The notes below the pieces were generated by a model. It saw only the letters and a list, made by a program, of their open reading frames with translations. It was not told the origin of the DNA and ran no database searches. DNA of 33,836 bases from Bacteroidota bacterium. GTDB taxonomy: Bacteria; Bacteroidota; Bacteroidia; B-17B0; Aurantibacillaceae. The position numbers were made by a program, and so were the translations under genes. Location: positions 1-33,836 of the forward strand of contig JAJNDK010000021.1 in the NCBI GenBank assembly GCA_021156365.1. The letters are read 5' to 3'. Of this stretch, positions 1,148-29,823 are shown in pieces. Each line of letters begins with the position of its first letter. Position 1 is the first letter of the stretch.

Positions 1148-1522
1148 TTAGCCTTTAACAGGCGTGATGATCTCAATACGTACTTTCGTGAGCCCGGCCC
1201 TGATAAAGTTCAGTTGTTTGGCAGCAGCTACAGAAAGGTCGATGCTCCTTGTAGATGTTTTAGGCAAACGATCATTTACTTTTACGATTACTACCGAGTC
1301 GTTTTTCAGGTTGGTAACTTTTACCCAGGTACCAAGCTTCATGGTTTTGTGTGCGGCAGTTAACTTCAGGTTACTGAAAATTTCTCCGGAGGAAGTTTTT
1401 CTTCCGTTGAATTTGTCATGGTAATAACTGGCAATACCAGTTTCGGTTGCGGATGAATCTTCTTTAAAGGTGAAGGAAAAGAGGAATGCGCAAAACAGGA
1501 TAAGAAGGAATTTTGTTTTCAT
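1148..1522 (-). CDS. rlpA: RlpA-like double-psi beta-barrel secreted protein
   Basis: The 124-residue product has a signal peptide (MKTKFLLILFCAFLFSFTF) followed directly by a complete RlpA domain. Visible landmarks are GIASYYHDKFNGRKTSSGE, then AAHKTMKLGTWVKVTN, then VKVNDRLP and RSIDLSVAAAKQL. This family forms a double-psi beta-barrel. In other bacteria RlpA acts on, or binds, peptidoglycan lacking stem peptides, and proteobacterial members often add a SPOR domain. This protein has no SPOR domain and no lipobox, so it is probably soluble in the periplasm or secreted. Whether it has lytic transglycosylase activity cannot be told from the sequence. It has its own terminator and a divergent neighbour, so it is likely monocistronic. 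Confidence 0.85.
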   Translation of the reverse strand: MKTKFLLILFCAFLFSFTFKEDSSATETGIASYYHDKFNGRKTSSGEIFSNLKLTAAHKTMKLGTWVKVTNLKNDSVVIVKVNDRLPKTSTRSIDLSVAAAKQLNFIRAGLTKVRIEIITPVKG

Positions 1523-17109: not shown

Positions 17110-20100
17110 TTACCTGTTCAGATAAGAGCTTGCCTCTGCACCGTATAGTTTTTTGCCGTCTTTGTATACGGTGATAAAGGCGTCGGTTATTCCATTGGCT
17201 TTCGCTTCTTCCATCAGCGTTCGTGCAAATTTCCCTTCCACGAATGAACCGACAGTATAAATATAGAGTCCGTTCACCTGGTTGGCAAGGATCGGCCAGT
17301 TTTTGATCTTCAGGAAGTTATTGGCAACATTCTGGGGCAACTGATTTTTGTAAGCGCCTATCTGCACTTTAAATGTAATGCCTTCGTCGCCTGCTTTTAC
17401 GCCGTTCTCAGCAGTTGGCTGCGGTGCCTGTGTCACACCATTGTTGAACGGAGCTGCTGTATTGGTCGGAGCCGCCGTATTCGTTACAGCAGGCGTAATG
17501 GTATTTGTAACCGGGGCAACTGTATTAGTTACAGGTGCAGAAGCGCCATCGAACTGAATAGGATTTTCCGGAGGGAACTGCAGGTTTTCTCCGGCAGCAA
17601 TTTTTGCAAGCGCATCCGCAATTTTGATCCGTTGACCATTCTGGTATGCGGAAACAAAAGCATCAGGTATACCAAGTGCATTTACTTTTGCCCTGTCGGT
17701 TTTCACCCGGTCGATGTTGTTGTAGATCCCTGCCGTGTAGCGATACTGCCCGTTTGGCATACGCTCGCGGTAGATCGGTTTCAGATTATAGAGCTGGTTG
17801 CCGCTTACCTGGTTGGAGTATACACCTATTTGTACCGTAAAGAGCATTCCCTGCATGTCGTTCAGGTCGGAGCTCACAGCAACCGGTGTGGAATTATTCG
17901 TATTGGCTGGTGTTGTTGTAGTGTTATTTGCAGCTGTATTGTTTGCAGTGTTGTTATTCAATGTATTTGCTACACTGTTGGCGGTAGGAACATTGGAATT
18001 GATGGTGATCCCGGCAGTCTCATTCGGATCGTTGTTAACCGGAATGCCCTGTTTTTTCAGCTCATTGATCGCATCGGCAAGAGAGATCCGCTGCCCGTCT
18101 TTGTAAGCGACCACGAACGCATCTTTATAACCTAATTTTTTCAGATCATTCCGTACAGCATTGGCATTGTCGAATTTTTCGAAGCGGCCTGCCTGGTATC
18201 GAATAAAACCTGTTTGGGTACGTTCGCCTCTTAACGGTGACAGCCCTTTGAAAAGATCATCGGGGATCTGGTTTTTGAAAGCGCCGATCTGCACGGCAAA
18301 AATAATTCCGTTAGGCAGTTTTTCATCGAGCGGTATCGGGTTGTTGGATGAGTAGGCATTATTGTTTTTCACTGAAATACCTGCAGCTGTTGTAATGTTT
18401 GCATTGTTGGATGCTGTATTCGTATTGTTGGTATTGTTTGCTGTAGTATTGGTATTCGTCGTAGTAGTGGTATTAGTGGTGGCTGTATTGTTATTGGTAG
18501 CCGAAGTGTTGTTATTAGTGCTATTATTCGTATTGTTTGTAACAGGAGGAGTAAGCGCTTTGATCTTATTATTGTTAGCGGCTACAGCTTTGTTATTGGC
18601 TGCTTTTTGGTTTTGCAATGTTGTGATCCGTTGATTGATCTTTGTTTTATCCGCTGCATTTGCCGTAGTCAGTTTTTTTCGTTCAAGCGTTATTTCCGCA
18701 TCAATGACACTGTTGTATTTGTTCAGGACTGCATTCCGGGCGCTGAGATTGCTTTCGTTCTCTTCTGCACCATTGAAACTTTTCAGGTCGTCGTCATATT
18801 TTGTAGCATTGTCCCTGAACGTTGGAGAGTAGTCAGCATATTTGGAAGTCGCAGTCGGTGTAGTGGAAGTATTGTTCGCAGCAGTGTTGCCGGTATTGGA
18901 TTGCTGGCCGGAGGCGATCCGGATGTTTTCGAGCGTTTTCGGATCGAGGCTTTGCTCATAGGCTTCCGCTTCCATTTTCTTGCTATCGGCAAAGGATTTG
19001 GTATTGCCTGCCAGTTCCATTACGGAATCACCTTTTGCTTTGAACTCGTTGGCCAGCCGGTCGAGCTTTGCAGCCTGCTCCTGTTTCAGGTTACGTTCAT
19101 CACCTGAAGGAAGTTTGTCCAACTGTATACGCAGGTCGTTCGATTCCTTCAGGTATAGGGTAGCCTGTTCGTAATAGTTTTTTGCTTTTGTACTTTCCTT
19201 CTCTGCAATGTCTTCATATTTTTTTACTTCCTGGGTGAAGGTGGTATAGTTCTTATACTCCGGTGTGCTTTGAACGGCTTTTATCTGCGCAGGGCTCAGC
19301 TTACCGTTGGAAGGTGTTACAGTGTTGGTGGAGGCTGTATTGGTATTTGAAGTATTTGATGTGGTATTGTTTGTAGTAGTGTTATCGGTCGAATTTGTAT
19401 TGTTGGTGGAAGTGGAATTGTTTGTAGTATTGGATGCGGTAGACGAGCTGTTTTGCAATTGTTCGCTTTCCGTATTGGCTTCGTTCGTTTTGCTGATTGC
19501 TGCTCTTAGTTTTTTGTTGGCATCCAACAGCATCGCATTTTTTTCTTTCAGGTTAGTAGAACTGCCTGCATTCGATAATAGGGCAGTCGCTTCACTGTAC
19601 AGATTCGTTGCTTCCTGGTCTTTTTGTTGTATGCTGCTATTGGTGCCGTTTGGCTTGGCTTCGTTTCCTTTCAGGCGGTTCATCACAAATGCATATTCCT
19701 GCTTGTTGGCTTCCGCCAGTTCTTCGAGGGCTTTGATCTTATCCTGCTCTTCTTTGTTCAATTCATTTTTTATATCCGCTACATTGCTTTCATTTACAGC
19801 ATTCGTGTTGCCGTTTTGAGAAGGAGTAAAAGCCGGATTGCTCTTTTTGAGTAAAGCGAGGGCTTCCTGTTGTTTTTTGAGCGCTTGCTGTTCTTTGTCT
19901 TCCACGTTGCTGAACGAAGCAGACTTCGCAGCTACATCCTGCTCCGCATTGGCTTCCTCTTCTATCCGCATGGCCTGGTTGTAGAGTGTTTTGGCTTCGC
20001 TGATCAATGAATTTATTTTCGTTATCACCGGATTTGGTTTTGATCCGTTGGCCTTCATATACTCATCGATCGTTTTCTCATTCTGTGCATAGGCTGCTTC

Positions 20101-23100
20101 ATTGTCTTTTGCTGTAAGAAGAGCAGCCTCAAATCTCTTGTTTGCTGCCATCGATTCCAGTTCTTTTACTTTTGCCAGGTTCTCCTGCTTCGCTTGTCCC
20201 GACAGGTTGTTTGTTTTCTTACGAAGATCGGTTGCTTCCGCGTACTGCTTTTCTGCCTCCGCATTCAGCTGGTTTATTTTCTCTGTGTTCTTTGGCGTGT
20301 CGCCTGTGCTGTTCTGAAGTGTGTTCTGAGCGGCAGTGACTTTGCCTGCAGTGTTTTTCGCATCGGCTACTGCGGCATTGTAGTCGCTTTCGGCTTTTTG
20401 CTTCAGTGTAACGGCTGCCGGGTTACTATAAGCATTATCAGCGAACAAGGATTGCTCTTCTGAGTTGGTGAATGAATTGAGCGTGTTGTTGAGATCATTC
20501 AGGCTATTGTTCAATGGCTGATTGTTTGTATTGGCGGCCGTGTTATTGGAAGTATTGTTTGTATTACCGGTGTTGTTGTTTGCAGTATTCGAAGTATTGT
20601 TGGAAGTGTTTGTGTTGTTGTTCGCAGCTGTAGAATTGTTCTCCACATTTTTGAAATACGCGATCTTCGAATCATTGATCTTTTTGTCTTCCTGTTGCTC
20701 TTTTTTGATCGCTTCCAATTCCTGGATCTTCGTATTGATTGCTGTTTTCTCAGCCGGTGTTTTCGCTTTTTTCAGCTCATTCTTTTTATCTGTGATCGAT
20801 TTGTCAATGGCTGCAATATAGGTATCGATCAGTTTGTTCTGCCCGGTATAGCGCCCGGAAGATTCGGGCTGGGAATTCAGCTTTGTGCTTTGCTCCTCAA
20901 AATTCTTTTGCTCTTTTTGAATGCCGCTCAGGTTCTCATTCCCGGATGTGTTATTGGTTATCGGGTTCAAGGAATTGGTGTTGTTTGTATTGTTGGTGGC
21001 AGTAGTATTAGTCGAATTACCGGAATTGTTGGTCGTATTGTTTGGATTTGTGGAAGTGTTACTGTTGTTGGTTGAGTTACTGGTGTTACCCGAATTGTTG
21101 TTTGGAATAGCTGTTACAGCTTCGGAGCTCTTTACCTCTGTCAGCATATTGCTGGCAAAGTCTGCCTGGCTTTTCAGCGCATCACTTTCCTTTTTCAGAG
21201 ACGTGATCCTGTTCTCTGTTTTTGTTTGTTCAGCGGTTTTTGCGTTCAGATCTGTCGTGAGCTCGTCTTTCTGTGCTTTCAGGTTATCCAGCAATGTCTT
21301 GTCCTTCGTAGTGCTGATCTCCTTATTGATATCATTCATCTCTTTCTGAAGCTCGGCTACATCATTTTTGATCTTGTATAGCGACGGTTCCAGGTTTTTT
21401 ATTTCCTCATCCTTCCGAAGGGCTTCACTCTTAATAGAGTTCGCCAGATCGTTGCTTGTATTCTTCGGTGCATTGCTTATTTGCTCCAGCTCTTTCTGGA
21501 TCGCTTCCAGTTTGCTCAGTGCATCTTTGTTGTTCTTCGATTTGTTTACCTGCTGCAAAGCTTCTGCATACTTCTGCTGCAGATCGGCTTCTTTCGCTTT
21601 GTTGTTGGCATCCAGGTCCAGCTGTTTGGCAATGTTCTCTGCCAGTGCCGCCTGGTCTTCCAGTTTTTTTGCTTCCTCTTTCAGTTCATTTGCCTTATCC
21701 AGCAAGGGTTCTTTTTTTATGGGATCTGTTTCCTTGTTGGCATTCCCGATAGCCTGCAGTGCTTCCTGTTCTTTCTGTTCCGCTTCAATTTTCTGGTTGT
21801 TCACAAACGTGAAAGCATCATTGGCATCCGATTTCAGTTTTACAGCTTCTTCTTTCAATTCTTTGACATCATCAAAGGCGATCTTTTCCAGCTGCTGATT
21901 GTTCATCGTTGTGTTGGAAGTTGTATTACCCGTATTGTTTGACGTATTGGTATTCGAAGTGTTTGTATTATTGGAAGTGTTGGAATTATTAGTGTTCGTT
22001 GAAGTAACCGTATTGGTAGCGGCAGGCGTGGTAAAATCGGAAGCATTCACATCCATCTTCGATTTTTCTTCGATGATCTCTATATAATCCTTGTAGGCAT
22101 TCTCGTCGCTCGAATTGGTCTTAAAGAAATTTTTGATCACCAATGTCTGGTCTTTATAACCGATCGTTTGCCTGTAGGGAATGAGCGAGTTGTTCTCCGG
22201 GATATCAATGCCTTCCGATTGTGTTGTAAAACCAGGTGTTTCCACTGTGAAAATGAATTTGCCTCCGTTCGGGATCTTCATCAGGTACGCCCCATCACTG
22301 CCCGCCTGGAATTTTCCTACATTTTCTCCGGCATTGATGTCTTTTACAGAGATCCGCGAAGCCACACTCTGCGTTTCATTTTGTTTCAGCACATTCCCTT
22401 TGATGTAAATAAATTCCGGAGGTCTGCGTTCCGTATTGATCTTGAACACATCGATCTTACCGACAGGGCTCTGGCGGGTAGAGGAGAAGTAAGCCGTTTT
22501 TTCAAGTGAATCGGTTACGAATAGAATATCGTCATTCGGTGTATTAATAGGAAAGTCAAGGTTCACCGGGCTGCTCCAGGTGCGTGTGTTCTCATCGAAT
22601 TCCGATTTGAAGAGATCGTAACCACCCATGCTGTTGTGTCCTTTGGATGCAAAGTACAATACCTTCCCGTTCGGATGGAGGAATGGGTAGTCTTCGTCGA
22701 ACCCTGTGTTGATAGGCGCTCCGAGACTTTGCGGTTTGCTCCATTCACCATTGGGCAATTTACGGACAATGTAAATATCCTTGTTGTCTCCGCTGCCGTA
22801 GCTGGAATAATACAGCTGGTCATTTGATTTGGGAAGATAAACGATCGACTTGTTCTTTTTCTTTTTATCTGCAGCGGTCATGTACTCTGCAGGTTTCACA
22901 AGTAATTTTCCGCCTATGCCTTTGAGGTTATAACTTCTGAAGTATTCGGTTTCCACTAACTGCTTTTTTTCCAGCACCACCAATTCATTCAGATTGCTCA
23001 GCAAACGTTTCCCGTTCTTGCAGGCATTGATCTCCATATCCACCTGGAGTTTTTTTACCATACCGCCGGAACCAATGGCTTTGTAATCGGTGTACAACTT

Positions 23101-23550
23101 TATGGCCTCATCAAAACGGAAATTGGAATGGTATGCTTTTGCAAGATAGAACTTGGCTTCCTTCTCACAGTCTTTGATATTCTTGTTGGCAAATTCGAGA
23201 TAGGGATAACACTTTTTTTTGTCGGGATCCGTATAGAGCATGCAGACACCGAGGCGGTAATTGTAATTCGGATCTTTGGGATAGGTGGAAACAAGCTGTG
23301 AATATGCCTTGTAGCCGGCTGCATAATCTTCGTCCTCAAAAGCCTTCGCGGCTTGTTTTTTCAATTCTTCTTCATTCGCATACTGAGCATGTGCTTTTTG
23401 CGGATTTAAAAAACCGAGAAAAAAGAACAGCAGGATCAGGTTCCGAAAAGTAGCCGGAACAGAACGATGAATGGTTTTAGCAATTTTCGGCACTGATGAC
23501 GTTATTCCATGTGGCAAGTAATTGAAAATAAGATTGTCACATGAAAACAT
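17110..23550 (-). CDS. Giant envelope protein: PorE-like front end, coiled coils with Asn/Thr linkers, three SPOR-like repeats
   Basis: Counting from the ATG at 23550 the protein has 2146 residues. The frame opens upstream at a GTG (23646), but a promoter-like box at 23596-23603 argues for a later start; a GTG at 23493 would give the most canonical signal peptide. The signal sequence ends at KAHAQ (about residue 56). TPR-like helices (57-190) lead into a PD40 beta-propeller (236-390, for example GEWSKPQSLGAPINTGFDED and SMGGYDLFKSEF) and a carboxypeptidase-regulatory-like domain (378-450). Then come long coiled-coil blocks separated by Asn/Thr-rich linkers near 504-550, 810-871, 968-1013, 1365-1415, 1550-1568, 1667-1720, 1848-1890 and 2003-2040. 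Three SPOR-like modules close it (1748-1838, 1901-1988, 2060-2146), each starting FxVQIGxxxNQ. The front end matches PorE architecture. I infer a periplasmic or outer-membrane scaffold that binds peptidoglycan. The SRPBCC gene follows directly. Confidence 0.88.
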   Translation of the reverse strand: MFSCDNLIFNYLPHGITSSVPKIAKTIHRSVPATFRNLILLFFFLGFLNPQKAHAQYANEEELKKQAAKAFEDEDYAAGYKAYSQLVSTYPKDPNYNYRLGVCMLYTDPDKKKCYPYLEFANKNIKDCEKEAKFYLAKAYHSNFRFDEAIKLYTDYKAIGSGGMVKKLQVDMEINACKNGKRLLSNLNELVVLEKKQLVETEYFRSYNLKGIGGKLLVKPAEYMTAADKKKKNKSIVYLPKSNDQLYYSSYGSGDNKDIYIVRKLPNGEWSKPQSLGAPINTGFDEDYPFLHPNGKVLYFASKGHNSMGGYDLFKSEFDENTRTWSSPVNLDFPINTPNDDILFVTDSLEKTAYFSSTRQSPVGKIDVFKINTERRPPEFIYIKGNVLKQNETQSVASRISVKDINAGENVGKFQAGSDGAYLMKIPNGGKFIFTVETPGFTTQSEGIDIPENNSLIPYRQTIGYKDQTLVIKNFFKTNSSDENAYKDYIEIIEEKSKMDVNASDFTTPAATNTVTSTNTNNSNTSNNTNTSNTNTSNNTGNTTSNTTMNNQQLEKIAFDDVKELKEEAVKLKSDANDAFTFVNNQKIEAEQKEQEALQAIGNANKETDPIKKEPLLDKANELKEEAKKLEDQAALAENIAKQLDLDANNKAKEADLQQKYAEALQQVNKSKNNKDALSKLEAIQKELEQISNAPKNTSNDLANSIKSEALRKDEEIKNLEPSLYKIKNDVAELQKEMNDINKEISTTKDKTLLDNLKAQKDELTTDLNAKTAEQTKTENRITSLKKESDALKSQADFASNMLTEVKSSEAVTAIPNNNSGNTSNSTNNSNTSTNPNNTTNNSGNSTNTTATNNTNNTNSLNPITNNTSGNENLSGIQKEQKNFEEQSTKLNSQPESSGRYTGQNKLIDTYIAAIDKSITDKKNELKKAKTPAEKTAINTKIQELEAIKKEQQEDKKINDSKIAYFKNVENNSTAANNNTNTSNNTSNTANNNTGNTNNTSNNTAANTNNQPLNNSLNDLNNTLNSFTNSEEQSLFADNAYSNPAAVTLKQKAESDYNAAVADAKNTAGKVTAAQNTLQNSTGDTPKNTEKINQLNAEAEKQYAEATDLRKKTNNLSGQAKQENLAKVKELESMAANKRFEAALLTAKDNEAAYAQNEKTIDEYMKANGSKPNPVITKINSLISEAKTLYNQAMRIEEEANAEQDVAAKSASFSNVEDKEQQALKKQQEALALLKKSNPAFTPSQNGNTNAVNESNVADIKNELNKEEQDKIKALEELAEANKQEYAFVMNRLKGNEAKPNGTNSSIQQKDQEATNLYSEATALLSNAGSSTNLKEKNAMLLDANKKLRAAISKTNEANTESEQLQNSSSTASNTTNNSTSTNNTNSTDNTTTNNTTSNTSNTNTASTNTVTPSNGKLSPAQIKAVQSTPEYKNYTTFTQEVKKYEDIAEKESTKAKNYYEQATLYLKESNDLRIQLDKLPSGDERNLKQEQAAKLDRLANEFKAKGDSVMELAGNTKSFADSKKMEAEAYEQSLDPKTLENIRIASGQQSNTGNTAANNTSTTPTATSKYADYSPTFRDNATKYDDDLKSFNGAEENESNLSARNAVLNKYNSVIDAEITLERKKLTTANAADKTKINQRITTLQNQKAANNKAVAANNNKIKALTPPVTNNTNNSTNNNTSATNNNTATTNTTTTTNTNTTANNTNNTNTASNNANITTAAGISVKNNNAYSSNNPIPLDEKLPNGIIFAVQIGAFKNQIPDDLFKGLSPLRGERTQTGFIRYQAGRFEKFDNANAVRNDLKKLGYKDAFVVAYKDGQRISLADAINELKKQGIPVNNDPNETAGITINSNVPTANSVANTLNNNTANNTAANNTTTTPANTNNSTPVAVSSDLNDMQGMLFTVQIGVYSNQVSGNQLYNLKPIYRERMPNGQYRYTAGIYNNIDRVKTDRAKVNALGIPDAFVSAYQNGQRIKIADALAKIAAGENLQFPPENPIQFDGASAPVTNTVAPVTNTITPAVTNTAAPTNTAAPFNNGVTQAPQPTAENGVKAGDEGITFKVQIGAYKNQLPQNVANNFLKIKNWPILANQVNGLYIYTVGSFVEGKFARTLMEEAKANGITDAFITVYKDGKKLYGAEASSYLNR
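17113..18315 (-). repeat. Three SPOR-like repeat modules in the giant gene
   Basis: Modules begin near 18305, 17845 and 17373 (minus strand). Each starts with the strand FAVQIGAFKNQ, FTVQIGVYSNQ or FKVQIGAYKNQ, and contains a second conserved half: RYQAGRF, RYTAGIY or IYTVGSF, followed by a helix and DAF(V/I)(V/S/T)(A/V)Y(K/Q)(D/N)G(Q/K). This two-half pattern is that of SPOR domains, which in other bacteria bind glycan strands stripped of stem peptides. Asn/Thr-rich linkers separate the copies. Confidence 0.75.
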
Positions 23551-23595
23551 AAACCTTAAACGTGCTTTTGTATTAATATGTTCCGGATAAATTAA

Positions 23596-23603
23596 CAAAA
23601 ATA
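23596..23603 (-). promoter_or_regulatory. -7 box upstream of the giant gene
   Basis: The minus strand reads TATTTTTG, an exact TAnnTTTG match. A start of transcription near 23589 would leave a leader of about 39 bases before the ATG at 23550. This makes the upstream GTG at 23646 an unlikely start. Confidence 0.5.
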
Positions 23604-23741
23604 CGATTTTAGTCCTTAAGATGCGAAGTAAACACAAATTACACACTATTCAGAGCCCTTCCGGCGTATTTATAAGGTCTTAAGTGTTAATTACTTGTAA
23701 AGCAATAAAACGGGTAAAAACACGTTATATTTTGAGTATTT

Positions 23742-25754
23742 TTGTATAAAATTAAAAAACTGCGCTCACTTAGTATCATATTTCTTCTTTTTCCTTTGCT
23801 GACAAAGGCTTTCGTGAATTCGCCACAGGTCAATTGTGTAAGTGTTTCCGGTGGTGATGTTACACTCAACTGGACAGCCCCTGCCGACCCTTCTTCCGAA
23901 TTTGTTAGTTATAACATATTTGTTTCCAATTCGTTAAATGGAACTTACAGCCCCGTTATTACCATTCCTACTCTCGCCACCACTTCGTATACCTACGTAG
24001 GTGCAGGAGCCAACACAACCCCTAAGTTTTTCTATATCACGACCACTTCCAGCGACGGAAGCACCCAGCCAGCGACCGATACGGTGCGGACCATTTTCCT
24101 GGTGGTAACCAATCCCCTGAATGGCGGCGTGGGATTTTTGCAATGGAACCCGGTTTCCGATCCCTTGCATCCCAGTTCAGGAGTAAGTTATACGATCTAC
24201 CGTGAATATCCTGCCGGAGTATATTCGGTGCTGGGAACCACTACCAACACCAAATGGCGCGACACCATTTCCATTTGCAGCTTTGCATTCAATTATTATG
24301 TAGAGATCTCGGATGCCAATGGTTGCAACTCCACTTCCAATGTAGTGAATATTACGATCGAGGATAAAACGGACCCTGTGCCTCCCGGACTGGATTCTGT
24401 GAGTATAGATCCTTTTACAGGCGATACGATCATGGGCATAAGTGCCTCTCCTTCGCAGGATGTAGTAGCTTTCCAGACCTACCAATATGTAGGGGTGTCG
24501 TACGCGAACTATCATGTGCTCACCGGTAATTTCTCACATACTGATACCATCAGGGGCGGAAGCGGAACCTATAGTGTGGCCAGTATGGACAGCTGCGGGA
24601 ATCTCAGCATTATATTGCCTAATCAGAGGACCATTGGCCTTCAATACAACTATTCATTATGTGGCAGAAGCGTCACGCTCGGCTGGACACCTTATATTAA
24701 TATGCGGAACGGTGTACGAACCTACAGGATCTTTCAGTCGGTTAACGGGGGAGCTTATACAATGATCGATGATACGGCGGGATTGAGCTATACAGTAGAG
24801 AACCTGCAGCAAAACAAAACCTATAAGTTCTTCGTGAGGGCAGTGGACAGCACCGGCACCATTACCTCCAGTTCCAACGTTATCACTTTTTTTTCGAAAA
24901 GCCAGCCGCTTCCTGTTTTTATATATGTGAAAAGTGTGAGTGTAAACCTGGCGCAGGATATCGATATCGGGATCCAGGTAGATGATACATCCGGTGTGCA
25001 GGGTATCGAAGTGTATCGCTCCCGCAGTGCTACAGGTACTTTCACGTTGGTAGGCTACATCACTTGTGCCCCGGGCAATGCCAGCTATTACATTACCGAT
25101 GCGAATGTGGAAACGGCCACTACCGAATATTATTACAAAGCAATTGCCATCGACAGCTGCGGGCTTCCGGCCATTACTTCCAATGTCAGTAAGTCGGTTG
25201 TGCTGCAGGTTGTTTCCAATGCCGACCGCACAAATACGCTGAGCTGGACGGATTATGAAAGTTACTTAGGAAATGTGGCCGCATGGAATATCTATCGTTC
25301 GGTGGATGATGTTTTTGATCCGGTGCCGGTTGCAACCGTGCCGGGTGGGATCTTTACTTACATCGATGATGTGGAGGCATTTATTCCCAATGCAGGCCGG
25401 TTCAATTATTATGTGCAGGCAGTGGAAGGTACGGGAAATCCATACGGCCTGATGGAGCTCAGCAATTCCAATATTGCAGAGACCTATCACAGCGACAATA
25501 TTTTCATCCCTTCGGCTTTTGTACCGAAAGGCCTGAACAAGGTGTTCCTGCCGATGACGCAATACGTGGAAAAAACCGAATACATGGTAAGCATTTACGA
25601 CCGCTGGGGCGGAAAGATCTGGGAAACGCAGAGCGACTCGGAAGGCTGGGATGGCGGCGGACACGAAGGCGGCTGGTATGTATATGTAATAGAATACAAA
25701 AATGCCTTTGGGGAATACAAACGCATCAATGGAAATGTGTTGATGATCAAATAG
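23742..25754 (+). CDS. Secreted fibronectin-like surface protein with type B (gliding-associated) sorting domain
   Basis: The 670-residue protein begins with a signal-like segment (KIKKLRSLSIIFLLFPLLTKAF) and continues with repeated beta-sandwich units of fibronectin type III character. Examples are CVSVSGGDVTLNWTAPADPS, SVTLGWTPYINMRNGVRTYR and RTNTLSWTDYESYLGNVAAW, each with the typical 'Y-x-I-(F/Y)' strand. The last 80 residues are the gliding-motility-associated C-terminal domain: IFIPSAFVPKGLNKVFLP, VSIYDRWGGKIWETQSDSEG, WDGGGHEGGWYVYVIEYKN. It should be exported by the T9SS and displayed on the surface or secreted. No ATG is available: a TGA lies at 23733 in frame, and the only plausible start before the signal peptide is the TTG at 23742 (or a non-standard ATT at 23751). 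It is divergent from the giant SPOR gene. Confidence 0.87.
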   Translation: MYKIKKLRSLSIIFLLFPLLTKAFVNSPQVNCVSVSGGDVTLNWTAPADPSSEFVSYNIFVSNSLNGTYSPVITIPTLATTSYTYVGAGANTTPKFFYITTTSSDGSTQPATDTVRTIFLVVTNPLNGGVGFLQWNPVSDPLHPSSGVSYTIYREYPAGVYSVLGTTTNTKWRDTISICSFAFNYYVEISDANGCNSTSNVVNITIEDKTDPVPPGLDSVSIDPFTGDTIMGISASPSQDVVAFQTYQYVGVSYANYHVLTGNFSHTDTIRGGSGTYSVASMDSCGNLSIILPNQRTIGLQYNYSLCGRSVTLGWTPYINMRNGVRTYRIFQSVNGGAYTMIDDTAGLSYTVENLQQNKTYKFFVRAVDSTGTITSSSNVITFFSKSQPLPVFIYVKSVSVNLAQDIDIGIQVDDTSGVQGIEVYRSRSATGTFTLVGYITCAPGNASYYITDANVETATTEYYYKAIAIDSCGLPAITSNVSKSVVLQVVSNADRTNTLSWTDYESYLGNVAAWNIYRSVDDVFDPVPVATVPGGIFTYIDDVEAFIPNAGRFNYYVQAVEGTGNPYGLMELSNSNIAETYHSDNIFIPSAFVPKGLNKVFLPMTQYVEKTEYMVSIYDRWGGKIWETQSDSEGWDGGGHEGGWYVYVIEYKNAFGEYKRINGNVLMIK

Positions 25755-27648: not shown

Positions 27649-29823
27649 ATGAAATCATTCCATATGCACTTCACATTCAAAAAAACGCTGTTAACCGCTT
27701 GTTTTCTAATCTGCGCTTCTTTCATTTTTGCCCAGGTAAATGTCGAATTTGAAAAAGACAATTTCAAAGACCGGAAGGATGAATTCAAGGAAGCGAAAAG
27801 TAATTTCAAGGATGGCAAAGAGCTCTTCGATAAAGGGTATACCGAATACAAGTCCTATATCGATTATTATATCCAGGAGAACGGGATCATGCCTTCCAGC
27901 CGGAGGGATTATTTTCACCAGGACGATCAGGTATTCATGGAATCCCTGCCTTTCCTGGAGAAAGCCCAGAAGTTCAACCCGGATAATGCCCAGCTCAACT
28001 GGATGATCGGTTTTATAAAATTCCAGCATAAGCACCAGAGTGATGAATGTGTGCCGTATCTTGAAAAAGCCTATAAGCTGAATCCCAATACCGACCAGAT
28101 GCTTACCTACACGCTTGCCTGGTCGTATCATCTGCACAACAAATGGGACGAGGCTATCAATTATTACAACATCTATAAAACAAAGGTCCAGCAGGGTGCA
28201 TCTTATGCAGCACAGGTGGAAGATGCAACAAAGAAAGCGACGGAGTGTGCGAACGGAAAAAAATACATGGCCAACCCACAGCGTGTGTTTATCGACAACA
28301 TGGGATCGCATGTGAATTCCGCTTTCCCTGAATACAGTGCGTATATCTCTACCGATGAGTCCGTTCTTATGTTCACATCGAGGAGAAGCAATTCCACCGG
28401 CGCAACCGTTGACAAGAAAGACAACGGGTATATGGAAGACATCTATATGTGTACAAAAGTGAACGGCGAATGGAGCGATCCGAAGAACATGGGAGTGCCG
28501 ATCAATTCTGCGGATCATGATGCTACCGCAGGTTTGTCGCCCGACGGTACTACGCTCTATATCTTTGCTTCTCACAAAAGTGTGGGTGATATCTATGAAA
28601 GCAAGCTGAACGGTACGGTATGGAGCAAGCCCGAAAAGATGAATAAGAATATCAACTCGGACCTTCGCGAAACAACCGTGTCCGAATCCTACGATGGCAC
28701 CAAATTGTATTATGTGTCGGAGAAAAAAGGAGGACTGGGTTTTGGTGATATATATATGAGCACTAAGGATGCCAAAGGAAAATGGGGCGAAGCGACGAAC
28801 ACCGGTGCCCCCATCAATACCAAATATGCCGAAGAAGGTGTGTTCTTATTGCCCGACGGGAAAACCATGTATTTCAGCTCCAAAGGCGGCGCAACGATGG
28901 GTGGCTACGATATTTTTAAATCTACTTTCGAGAATGGGAAATGGACGGAGCCGGTGAATTTAGGGTATCCGGTGAACAGTCCTGATGATGATGTATACTT
29001 TGTAATTTCCGGAAGCGGGCGTCGTGGCTATTATGCTTCCGCCAAAGAAGGCGGTTACGGGGAGAAAGATCTGTACATGATCACCTTCCTCGGGCCGGAG
29101 AAACCGAATATGCTGAGTAATGAAGACAACCTGATCGCCTGTATTGCAGAGCCGATCAAGACCGTTCAGGCAGCTCCACCGATGGAAGTGGCATCGAATG
29201 CGCTCACGATCCTGAAAGGGACCATCACCGATGCGGTCACACAGAAACCATTGGAAACGACCATAGAACTCATCGACAATACAAAGAACGAAGTAGTAGC
29301 TACTTTCAAATCCAACAGCGCTACCGGTAAATATTTAGCCATGCTACCATCGGGTAAGAACTATGGTATTGCGGTGAAGGCCGAAGGATACCTTTTCCAC
29401 TCGGAGAATTTCGATATCCCGAAAGCCAGCGGTTACCAGGAGATCATCAAGGACATCCAGCTGAAAAATGTATCGGTGGGAGCGAAGATCATCCTGAAAA
29501 ATATCTTCTTTGATTTTGATAAAGCAACCCTGCGTCCTGAATCAACAAACGAACTCGAACGTTTGATCAAGCTGCTCACCGATGTGCCTACGCTGAAGAT
29601 CGAGATCGGCAGCCACACCGACAGCAAAGGAAGCGACGATTACAATATGAAATTATCACAATCGCGGTCCGAGTCGGTGGTAAACTATTTGATCTCGCAC
29701 GGCATTGCAAAAGACCGCCTGCAGGCAAAAGGGTATGGTGAGACCAAACCGATCGCTACCAATGATACCGATGATGGCAGGCAGCAGAACCGGAGGAGTG
29801 AGTTTGAGATCTTGAGTAAATAA
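27649..29823 (+). CDS. PorE-like TPR / PD40 beta-propeller / OmpA-C protein
   Basis: The 724-residue protein starts at ATG 27649 (an in-frame ATG at 27664 would give a tidier signal peptide, MHFTFKKTLLTACFLICASF). TPR-like helices cover about 40-200 and end in a CANGKKYM segment similar to the giant protein's ACKNGKRL. A PD40 beta-propeller spans about 228-490 (ISTDESVLMFTSRRSNST, LLPDGKTMYFSSKGGATMGG). A carboxypeptidase-regulatory-like domain follows at 525-605. The OmpA C-terminal domain is at 615-724 (FFDFDKATLRPESTNELERL, IGSHTDSKGSDDYN, LSQSRSESVVNYL). This is the domain order of PorE, the T9SS outer-membrane lipoprotein that binds peptidoglycan, although I see no lipobox here. Such PD40-OmpA proteins are numerous in Bacteroidota, so exact PorE orthology is not claimed. 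Confidence 0.9.
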   Translation: MKSFHMHFTFKKTLLTACFLICASFIFAQVNVEFEKDNFKDRKDEFKEAKSNFKDGKELFDKGYTEYKSYIDYYIQENGIMPSSRRDYFHQDDQVFMESLPFLEKAQKFNPDNAQLNWMIGFIKFQHKHQSDECVPYLEKAYKLNPNTDQMLTYTLAWSYHLHNKWDEAINYYNIYKTKVQQGASYAAQVEDATKKATECANGKKYMANPQRVFIDNMGSHVNSAFPEYSAYISTDESVLMFTSRRSNSTGATVDKKDNGYMEDIYMCTKVNGEWSDPKNMGVPINSADHDATAGLSPDGTTLYIFASHKSVGDIYESKLNGTVWSKPEKMNKNINSDLRETTVSESYDGTKLYYVSEKKGGLGFGDIYMSTKDAKGKWGEATNTGAPINTKYAEEGVFLLPDGKTMYFSSKGGATMGGYDIFKSTFENGKWTEPVNLGYPVNSPDDDVYFVISGSGRRGYYASAKEGGYGEKDLYMITFLGPEKPNMLSNEDNLIACIAEPIKTVQAAPPMEVASNALTILKGTITDAVTQKPLETTIELIDNTKNEVVATFKSNSATGKYLAMLPSGKNYGIAVKAEGYLFHSENFDIPKASGYQEIIKDIQLKNVSVGAKIILKNIFFDFDKATLRPESTNELERLIKLLTDVPTLKIEIGSHTDSKGSDDYNMKLSQSRSESVVNYLISHGIAKDRLQAKGYGETKPIATNDTDDGRQQNRRSEFEILSK

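Follow-up and report, generated by a model that had tools for sequence, protein, structure and literature searches.

A 33,836-nucleotide stretch of DNA from a Bacteroidota bacterium (contig JAJNDK010000021.1 of assembly GCA_021156365.1), hereafter the window, carries on its minus strand a gene for a giant protein that joins a PorE-like front to a tail of three SPOR modules by way of a very long spacer (Table 1). The reading frame is real: the initial annotation had placed it at 17110-23550, where 23550 is the position of an ATG, and a GTG start extends it to 23646, the later possible starts being this ATG and a GTG at 23493. In the whole protein, Pfam recognises PD40 at residues 309-346 (E 3.6e-8) and SPOR at residues 1783-1846 (E 4.6e-5; 24.1 bits, cut-off 21), with TPR matches below the cut-off only and no OmpA domain (PF00691) at E values up to 10. 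What reads as a signal peptide has no lipobox pattern, as is the case in 101 of the 112 family members scanned (the window protein included; the pattern is present in the other 11), and the best PorE candidate of the genome, judged by eye, likewise lacks it.

Table 1. Coordinates in the window of the giant gene, its parts and two comparison proteins
Feature	Residues	Position	Strand	Basis
Giant PorE-like/SPOR gene	2,178 in all	17110..23646	minus	Length from GTG start
Signal-peptide-like region	ends ...QKAHAQ, near 88	23383..23550	minus	Read from sequence; no lipobox pattern
TPR domain	92-216	22999..23373	minus	AlphaFold helices; structural matches; Pfam TPR below cut-off
PD40 propeller-like region, ~188 residues	221-408	22423..22986	minus	Pfam PD40; model strands; alignment to OmpA protein and PorE candidate
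Carboxypeptidase-regulatory/transthyretin-like domain	412-507	22126..22413	minus	Model beta region; Foldseek; alignment to window OmpA protein
Spacer, ~1,240 residues, Asn/Thr/Ser-rich linkers between helical segments	540-1779	18310..22029	minus	
Helical repeat copy	620-679	21610..21789	minus	50.7 bits
Helical repeat copy	1217-1272	19831..19998	minus	19.0 bits
Helical repeat copy	1343-1396	19459..19620	minus	35.4 bits
Helical repeat copy, weak	1493-1552	18991..19170	minus	11.1 bits
SPOR module 1	1780-1849	18100..18309	minus	Pfam 29.8 bits; model; Gln and Arg in 90/90
SPOR module 2	1933-2002	17641..17850	minus	Family profile 92.4 bits; model without first helix; DedD Z 4.4
SPOR module 3	2089-2162	17161..17382	minus	Model; CwlC Z 7.3, RlpA Z 6.4; basic residue replaced in nearly all
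TPR/PD40/regulatory-like protein with OmpA anchor (comparison)		27649..29823	plus	Pfam, NCBIfam, alignment
RlpA-like DPBB protein		1148..1522	minus	DPBB E 2.7e-19

We examined the tail by profile searches and structure prediction. SPOR was matched in all 49 aligned tails (the window protein and 48 relatives) at E values up to 0.01. When the modules were scanned singly against the Pfam SPOR profile (PF05036, cut-off 21), module 1 passed with 29.8 bits; in one relative (L115), module 1 also passes, module 3 scores 13.7 bits and module 2 gives no match to SPOR even at E 1. The AlphaFold model of the tail, with 268 of 411 residues at a predicted local distance difference test (pLDDT) of at least 90, flexible linkers and a predicted template modelling score (pTM) of 0.37, shows the beta-alpha-beta-beta-alpha-beta order of the RNP-like SPOR fold in modules 1 and 3, and the same order minus the first helix in module 2. 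The highest-ranking matches in the structural comparison (VIA) include solved SPOR domains, namely CwlC (Z 7.3), RlpA (Z 6.4) and DamX (Z 5.0) for module 3 and DedD (Z 4.4) for module 2; also among the matches is a putative exported protein (6ozd, Z 6.7). CwlC is the top Foldseek match to the tail (probability 1.00, TMt 0.72, E 4.8e-3), and its SPOR domain is the sole plausible match, a weak one, in sequence searches against solved structures.

The number of modules was counted in 121 giant frames, using an iterated profile built from the three window modules. Exactly three were found in 96 full-length and 2 end-cut frames, two in 4 and four in 1, while 3 full-length frames had none and 15 cut ones had fewer. 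One of the frames with none is frameshifted, possibly through an assembly error, and has three modules in its second frame (L120), another is interrupted by unread bases (L166) and the third is a distant variant (L086). Conserved residues were counted only where the number of modules was exactly three (98 of 121 proteins, or 90 after removal of 8 near-duplicates), so that those with two, four or no modules and the cut ones were left out. The Gln and the strand 3 basic residue of each module are taken by us to correspond to the sites known from RlpA and FtsN, on the basis of motif spacing, the sequence of FtsN and an alignment with CwlC. In those proteins, the residues that contact denuded glycan are Q270 and R309 of RlpA and Q251 and R285 of FtsN, according to PMC6895207. 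The Gln is kept in 90/90 proteins in modules 1 and 2 and in 82/90 in module 3, and the basic residue is Arg in 90/90 in module 1 and Arg in 88 and Lys in 2 of 90 in module 2, but in module 3 it is replaced in nearly all proteins. Hence, as far as sequence can tell, modules 1 and 2 look competent for denuded glycan and module 3 looks altered.

By sequence and model, the front is of the PorE type, with the predicted order TPR, propeller and carboxypeptidase-regulatory-like domain (CRD) and a shortened PD40 region. The NCBIfam PorE model (NF052230) matches residues 275-486 at E 1.2e-25, with 89.8 bits against a cut-off of 600, and a profile of the front aligns across TPR, PD40 and CRD to the window's OmpA protein and also to the best PorE candidate of the genome. 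An AlphaFold model of residues 87-539, made with 45 relatives in the alignment (mean pLDDT 85.7, pTM 0.81), consists of helices at 6-130, strands at 135-322 and a beta domain at 326-421 (model numbering), followed by a helix that runs into the spacer. TPR domains fill the list of the structural comparison (e.g., TPR2B of Sti1, Z 14.7), such Z values being common for helical repeats according to the tool, and Foldseek lists transthyretin-related proteins (TMt ~0.6), as expected for a CRD. Nearly all VIA rows listed fall within the TPR region, so that the propeller fold is assigned from the PD40 sequence matches and not from structure comparison. The PD40 region spans 269 residues (167-435) in Porphyromonas gingivalis PorE, according to PMC7192894, which makes the ~188 residues of the giant a shortened version.

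Between front and tail, the spacer is composed of 17% Asn, 12% Thr and 8% Ser (residues 546-1765), and in 90 proteins it ranges from 905 to 2,083 residues (median 1,280). Iterated profiles uncovered in it a degenerate, family-specific helical repeat of ~56 residues. Since the profile started from a single segment of the window protein and was then extended with spacers of the family itself, the 444 copies that it finds in 99 of these, some of them shortened by a second front-like match, are counts in its training set. The same profile found no match in reversed or in shuffled spacers; among 2,468 other frames it gave 8 matches below E 0.01, every one of them in the second half of an interrupted family member (L120 or L166). 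At least one copy is present in 82 of 91 non-redundant spacers, and the repeat consensus exceeds no Pfam cut-off (DUF6381, 24.5 bits against 26.6). A spacer of coiled coil only was rejected on the grounds of this repeat and its clean controls.

These results bear out most of the initial annotation, which had described a PorE-like TPR/PD40/regulatory-like front, three SPOR-like C-terminal modules in the place of an OmpA anchor and, between them, more than 1,200 residues of coiled coil and linker. The PorE match, the front alignment and the model agree with the first, the profile matches, the predicted folds and the lead of solved SPOR domains with the second, and the absence of OmpA with the replacement. 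The description of the spacer was incomplete, as it also holds degenerate copies of the helical repeat.

The family is broad. Among 295 genomes of the class, the front query has matches in 288, many via PorE-like paralogs, and the tail query in 229, with none in 66. At least 101 of the 295 (the window's genome included), from 25 families, have both ends together in a single open frame, by which a unique fusion or an artefact was rejected; 9 of the 110 front matches in frames of at least 1,400 residues lack a listed tail match in the same frame. Thus, the initial view that the architecture is unusual is not supported. It is widespread and apparently uncharacterised: we found no description of a PorE-like front combined with SPOR among the papers listed by the literature searches, which covered few subscription papers or preprints, and PMC12635249 mentions neither SPOR, PorE, PD40 nor peptidoglycan. 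Of 198 very complete genomes sampled from the phylum, 33 contain a tail-profile match. Nearly all of the named relatives (best 80 of 186) are labelled as metagenome bins of Bacteroidetes, Bacteroidota or Bacteroidia. In five distant variants (L086, L187-L190; 1,192-1,626 residues), one protein has a clear module (39.3 bits), another a weak one (11.6 bits) and the remaining three none.

N- and C-terminal identities co-vary over 90 proteins (Spearman 0.84; the highest of 500 permutations gave 0.23), and a branch supported at 100/100 separates 15 sampled giants from the rest of an unrooted tree. Hence, both ends were inherited as a unit, and the giants form one clade. Three frames of ~970-1,000 residues in other genomes (G255:C42, G030:C83 and G171:C6) carry two tandem front-like matches.

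The genome of the window holds many relatives of the front. The protein at 27649-29823, which had been annotated as an ordinary PorE-like OmpA protein, was confirmed by Pfam and NCBIfam as having TPR, PD40 and OmpA, and its best NCBIfam match is the CHU_0125-type PD40/OmpA model (305 of 620 bits). Including this protein, 24 further PorE-like fronts were classed by their C-terminal end from the better, not all, PorE-profile matches of the genome; 14 end in OmpA, 3 in a single SPOR and 7 in neither. The three short SPOR paralogs (L193, L194 and L195, in G000:C9, C22 and C1; 672, 677 and 770 residues) score 46, 35 and 30 bits with the family SPOR profile, are not above the Pfam cut-off, and keep Gln and Arg. 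They group together (97/93) in a tree from which 3 of the 24 fronts were excluded as too short. The tree places the short and the giant SPOR proteins as separate groups, and one clade of both is not rejected (approximately unbiased test, p 0.276). The same genome also encodes a second three-SPOR protein, of 749 residues and with no PorE-like front match (L196:937-3183, G000:C3), and an adjacent pair of PD40/OmpA proteins that pair at 100/100 in the tree (L218, G000:C5:47000-51500). The RlpA-like protein mentioned in the initial annotation is present in the window as a DPBB protein, in which no SPOR match was found at E up to 0.01.

We also looked at the neighbours of the giant gene, clustered over 113 non-redundant loci, many of which are cut by contig ends; one representative per cluster was identified, and the smaller clusters only in part. 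ClpS lies beside the gene in 43 of the 113 loci (within ~350 bp in 40 of these), an M48 peptidase in 29 (downstream in 28) and PlsY in 16 (within 170 bp in 15), and none of them points to division or secretion. Two further clusters (25 and 21 loci) have representatives with type A sorting domains of the type IX secretion system (T9SS; 55 and 50 bits, cut-off 23); at 31 of the 113 loci such a neighbour is found no more than 1.5 kb away, in most cases upstream and on the opposite strand. No frame of the window falls into any of these recurrent clusters. There, the divergent neighbour (23742-25754, plus strand) has fibronectin type III domains together with a T9SS type B-like secretion signal (CHU_C, over the Pfam cut-off).

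Starting from the domain content, fold, conserved residues, breadth and monophyly of the family, we infer that the giant protein may be a periplasmic tether or scaffold anchored to glycan that lacks stem peptides, a reading to which we give a little under an even chance and which would include its export, its binding to glycan, a septal location and a docking partner. Its N-terminus, which looks like an ordinary signal peptide, would direct its export. The front, with its TPR, short PD40 and regulatory-like parts, might, as has been suggested for PorE, dock to a complex of the outer membrane or envelope, and the spacer, with its helical repeats and Asn/Thr/Ser-rich linkers, would give reach and flexibility. 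The three SPOR modules could then fasten the tail, by avidity, to glycan strands without stem peptides, a ligand that amidases make at division sites and in remodelling zones; the two Amidase_3 matches in the genome could be its source. The giant would thereby act like PorE or the CHU_0125-type tethers, which bind stem peptides through OmpA, but with another wall target.

Several observations weigh against this reading. In the window protein, module 1 alone passes Pfam when the modules are scanned singly, modules 3 and 2 scoring 19.7 and 14.4 bits, both over half of the profile. The VIA Z scores of 7.3 and below are modest, and such values are common according to the tool's note; the SPOR rows listed cover modules 2 and 3, and none covers module 1. 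No Foldseek match to the tail reaches E 0.001. The basic residue of module 3 is missing in 88 of 90 proteins (Arg or Lys in 2; Ile, Val or Leu in 83), and the comparison concerned one basic position, of the three arginines of RlpA. A tail match within a giant frame was found in 2 of the 198 very complete phylum genomes (the window's and one other), and the neighbour clusters examined give no link to division. Moreover, glycan binding and location are argued from sequence, fold and analogy, and septal targeting in particular is what SPOR domains in other bacteria would suggest.

Three other explanations were weighed. The protein could be a component of T9SS or of gliding, that is, a variant of PorE by which the machine is fixed to wall that is septal or has been remodelled, similar to the link with a T9SS-like machine put forward in the initial annotation. 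The PorE match, two GldM matches in the genome, the type IX signal of the divergent neighbour and the T9SS-sorted neighbours at 31 loci are in line with it, yet the PorE score is far below the cut-off, OmpA is missing and a protein encoded elsewhere in the genome makes a better PorE candidate (508.6 bits, likewise short of 600). GldM is found in 280 of 295 sampled genomes and is thus near universal, so that co-occurrence cannot discriminate a T9SS role; this line was set aside as uninformative, and 4 of the 101 genomes that hold the giant have no GldM match (completeness is 60-81% in three of them and 95% in the fourth). T9SS-sorted cargo is common in such genomes. The sorted neighbours are cargo and not machine parts, and their raw count is weak evidence for a T9SS role. 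In summary, the link to a T9SS-like machine is not supported, and we consider a T9SS role fairly unlikely.

Another reading, also unlikely in our view, is that of a factor for division or cell separation in which, as in FtsN, DamX or RlpA, the SPOR part would do most of the work, while the PorE-like head would recruit the outer membrane during constriction. Division sites are commonly marked by SPOR domains (PMC6895207), an RlpA-like DPBB protein is encoded in the window and amidases are encoded in the genome; against this, there is no division gene in the conserved neighbour clusters examined, the tail query has no match in 66 of 295 class genomes, and 196 of 198 phylum genomes have none in a giant frame. 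Lastly, the SPOR-like modules might have drifted to another ligand, leaving a general structural fibre of the envelope. The altered module 3, a spacer that varies more than two-fold in length and the finding of a module in just 2 of 5 distant variants would fit such a fibre, but all 90 proteins have the Gln in modules 1 and 2, where the basic position is always Arg or Lys, and we regard this drift as improbable.

Taking the tether to denuded glycan as the preferred reading, the paralogs suggest a wider scheme, which we put forward tentatively and hold to be possible though not probable: Bacteroidota may sort PorE-like scaffold paralogs between wall targets by means of their C-terminal anchor, OmpA for wall with stem peptides and SPOR for peptide-free glycan. 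The giant would then be the form with long reach and three SPOR domains, by which a machine of the outer membrane is tied specifically to zones of division or remodelling. Where OmpA-type domains recognise wall that bears stem peptides, SPOR-type domains recognise wall from which these are missing, and a SPOR tail on the front of a secretion scaffold could be a route by which Bacteroidota place outer-membrane machines at, or couple outer-membrane constriction to, division. The set of paralogs in this one genome makes the idea of an anchor swap open to domain exchange.

SPOR proteins and PorE-type proteins are both known; their combination is widespread, coherent and apparently uncharacterised. 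PorE shares with the giant the order of the front (TPR, PD40/WD40 and CRD) and a C-terminal domain of a peptidoglycan-binding type, whereas the giant has no OmpA but three SPOR modules, a spacer of ~1,240 residues, a shorter PD40 region, no lipobox pattern and a score far below the NCBIfam cut-off. The CHU_0125-type PD40/OmpA proteins have a front homologous to that of the giant over TPR, PD40 and CRD, and carry an OmpA anchor where the giant has spacer and SPOR. With FtsN, DamX, DedD, RlpA and CwlC, the giant shares the SPOR fold and, in modules 1 and 2, the Gln and the basic residue. Most known SPOR proteins have one such domain with a membrane anchor or an enzyme (in part after PMC6895207), while the giant bears three copies on a PorE-like scaffold. 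Like the giant, the short paralogs L193, L194 and L195 combine a TPR-PD40-CRD front with a C-terminal SPOR that has Gln and Arg; unlike it, they are 672-770 residues long, with one SPOR and no long spacer.

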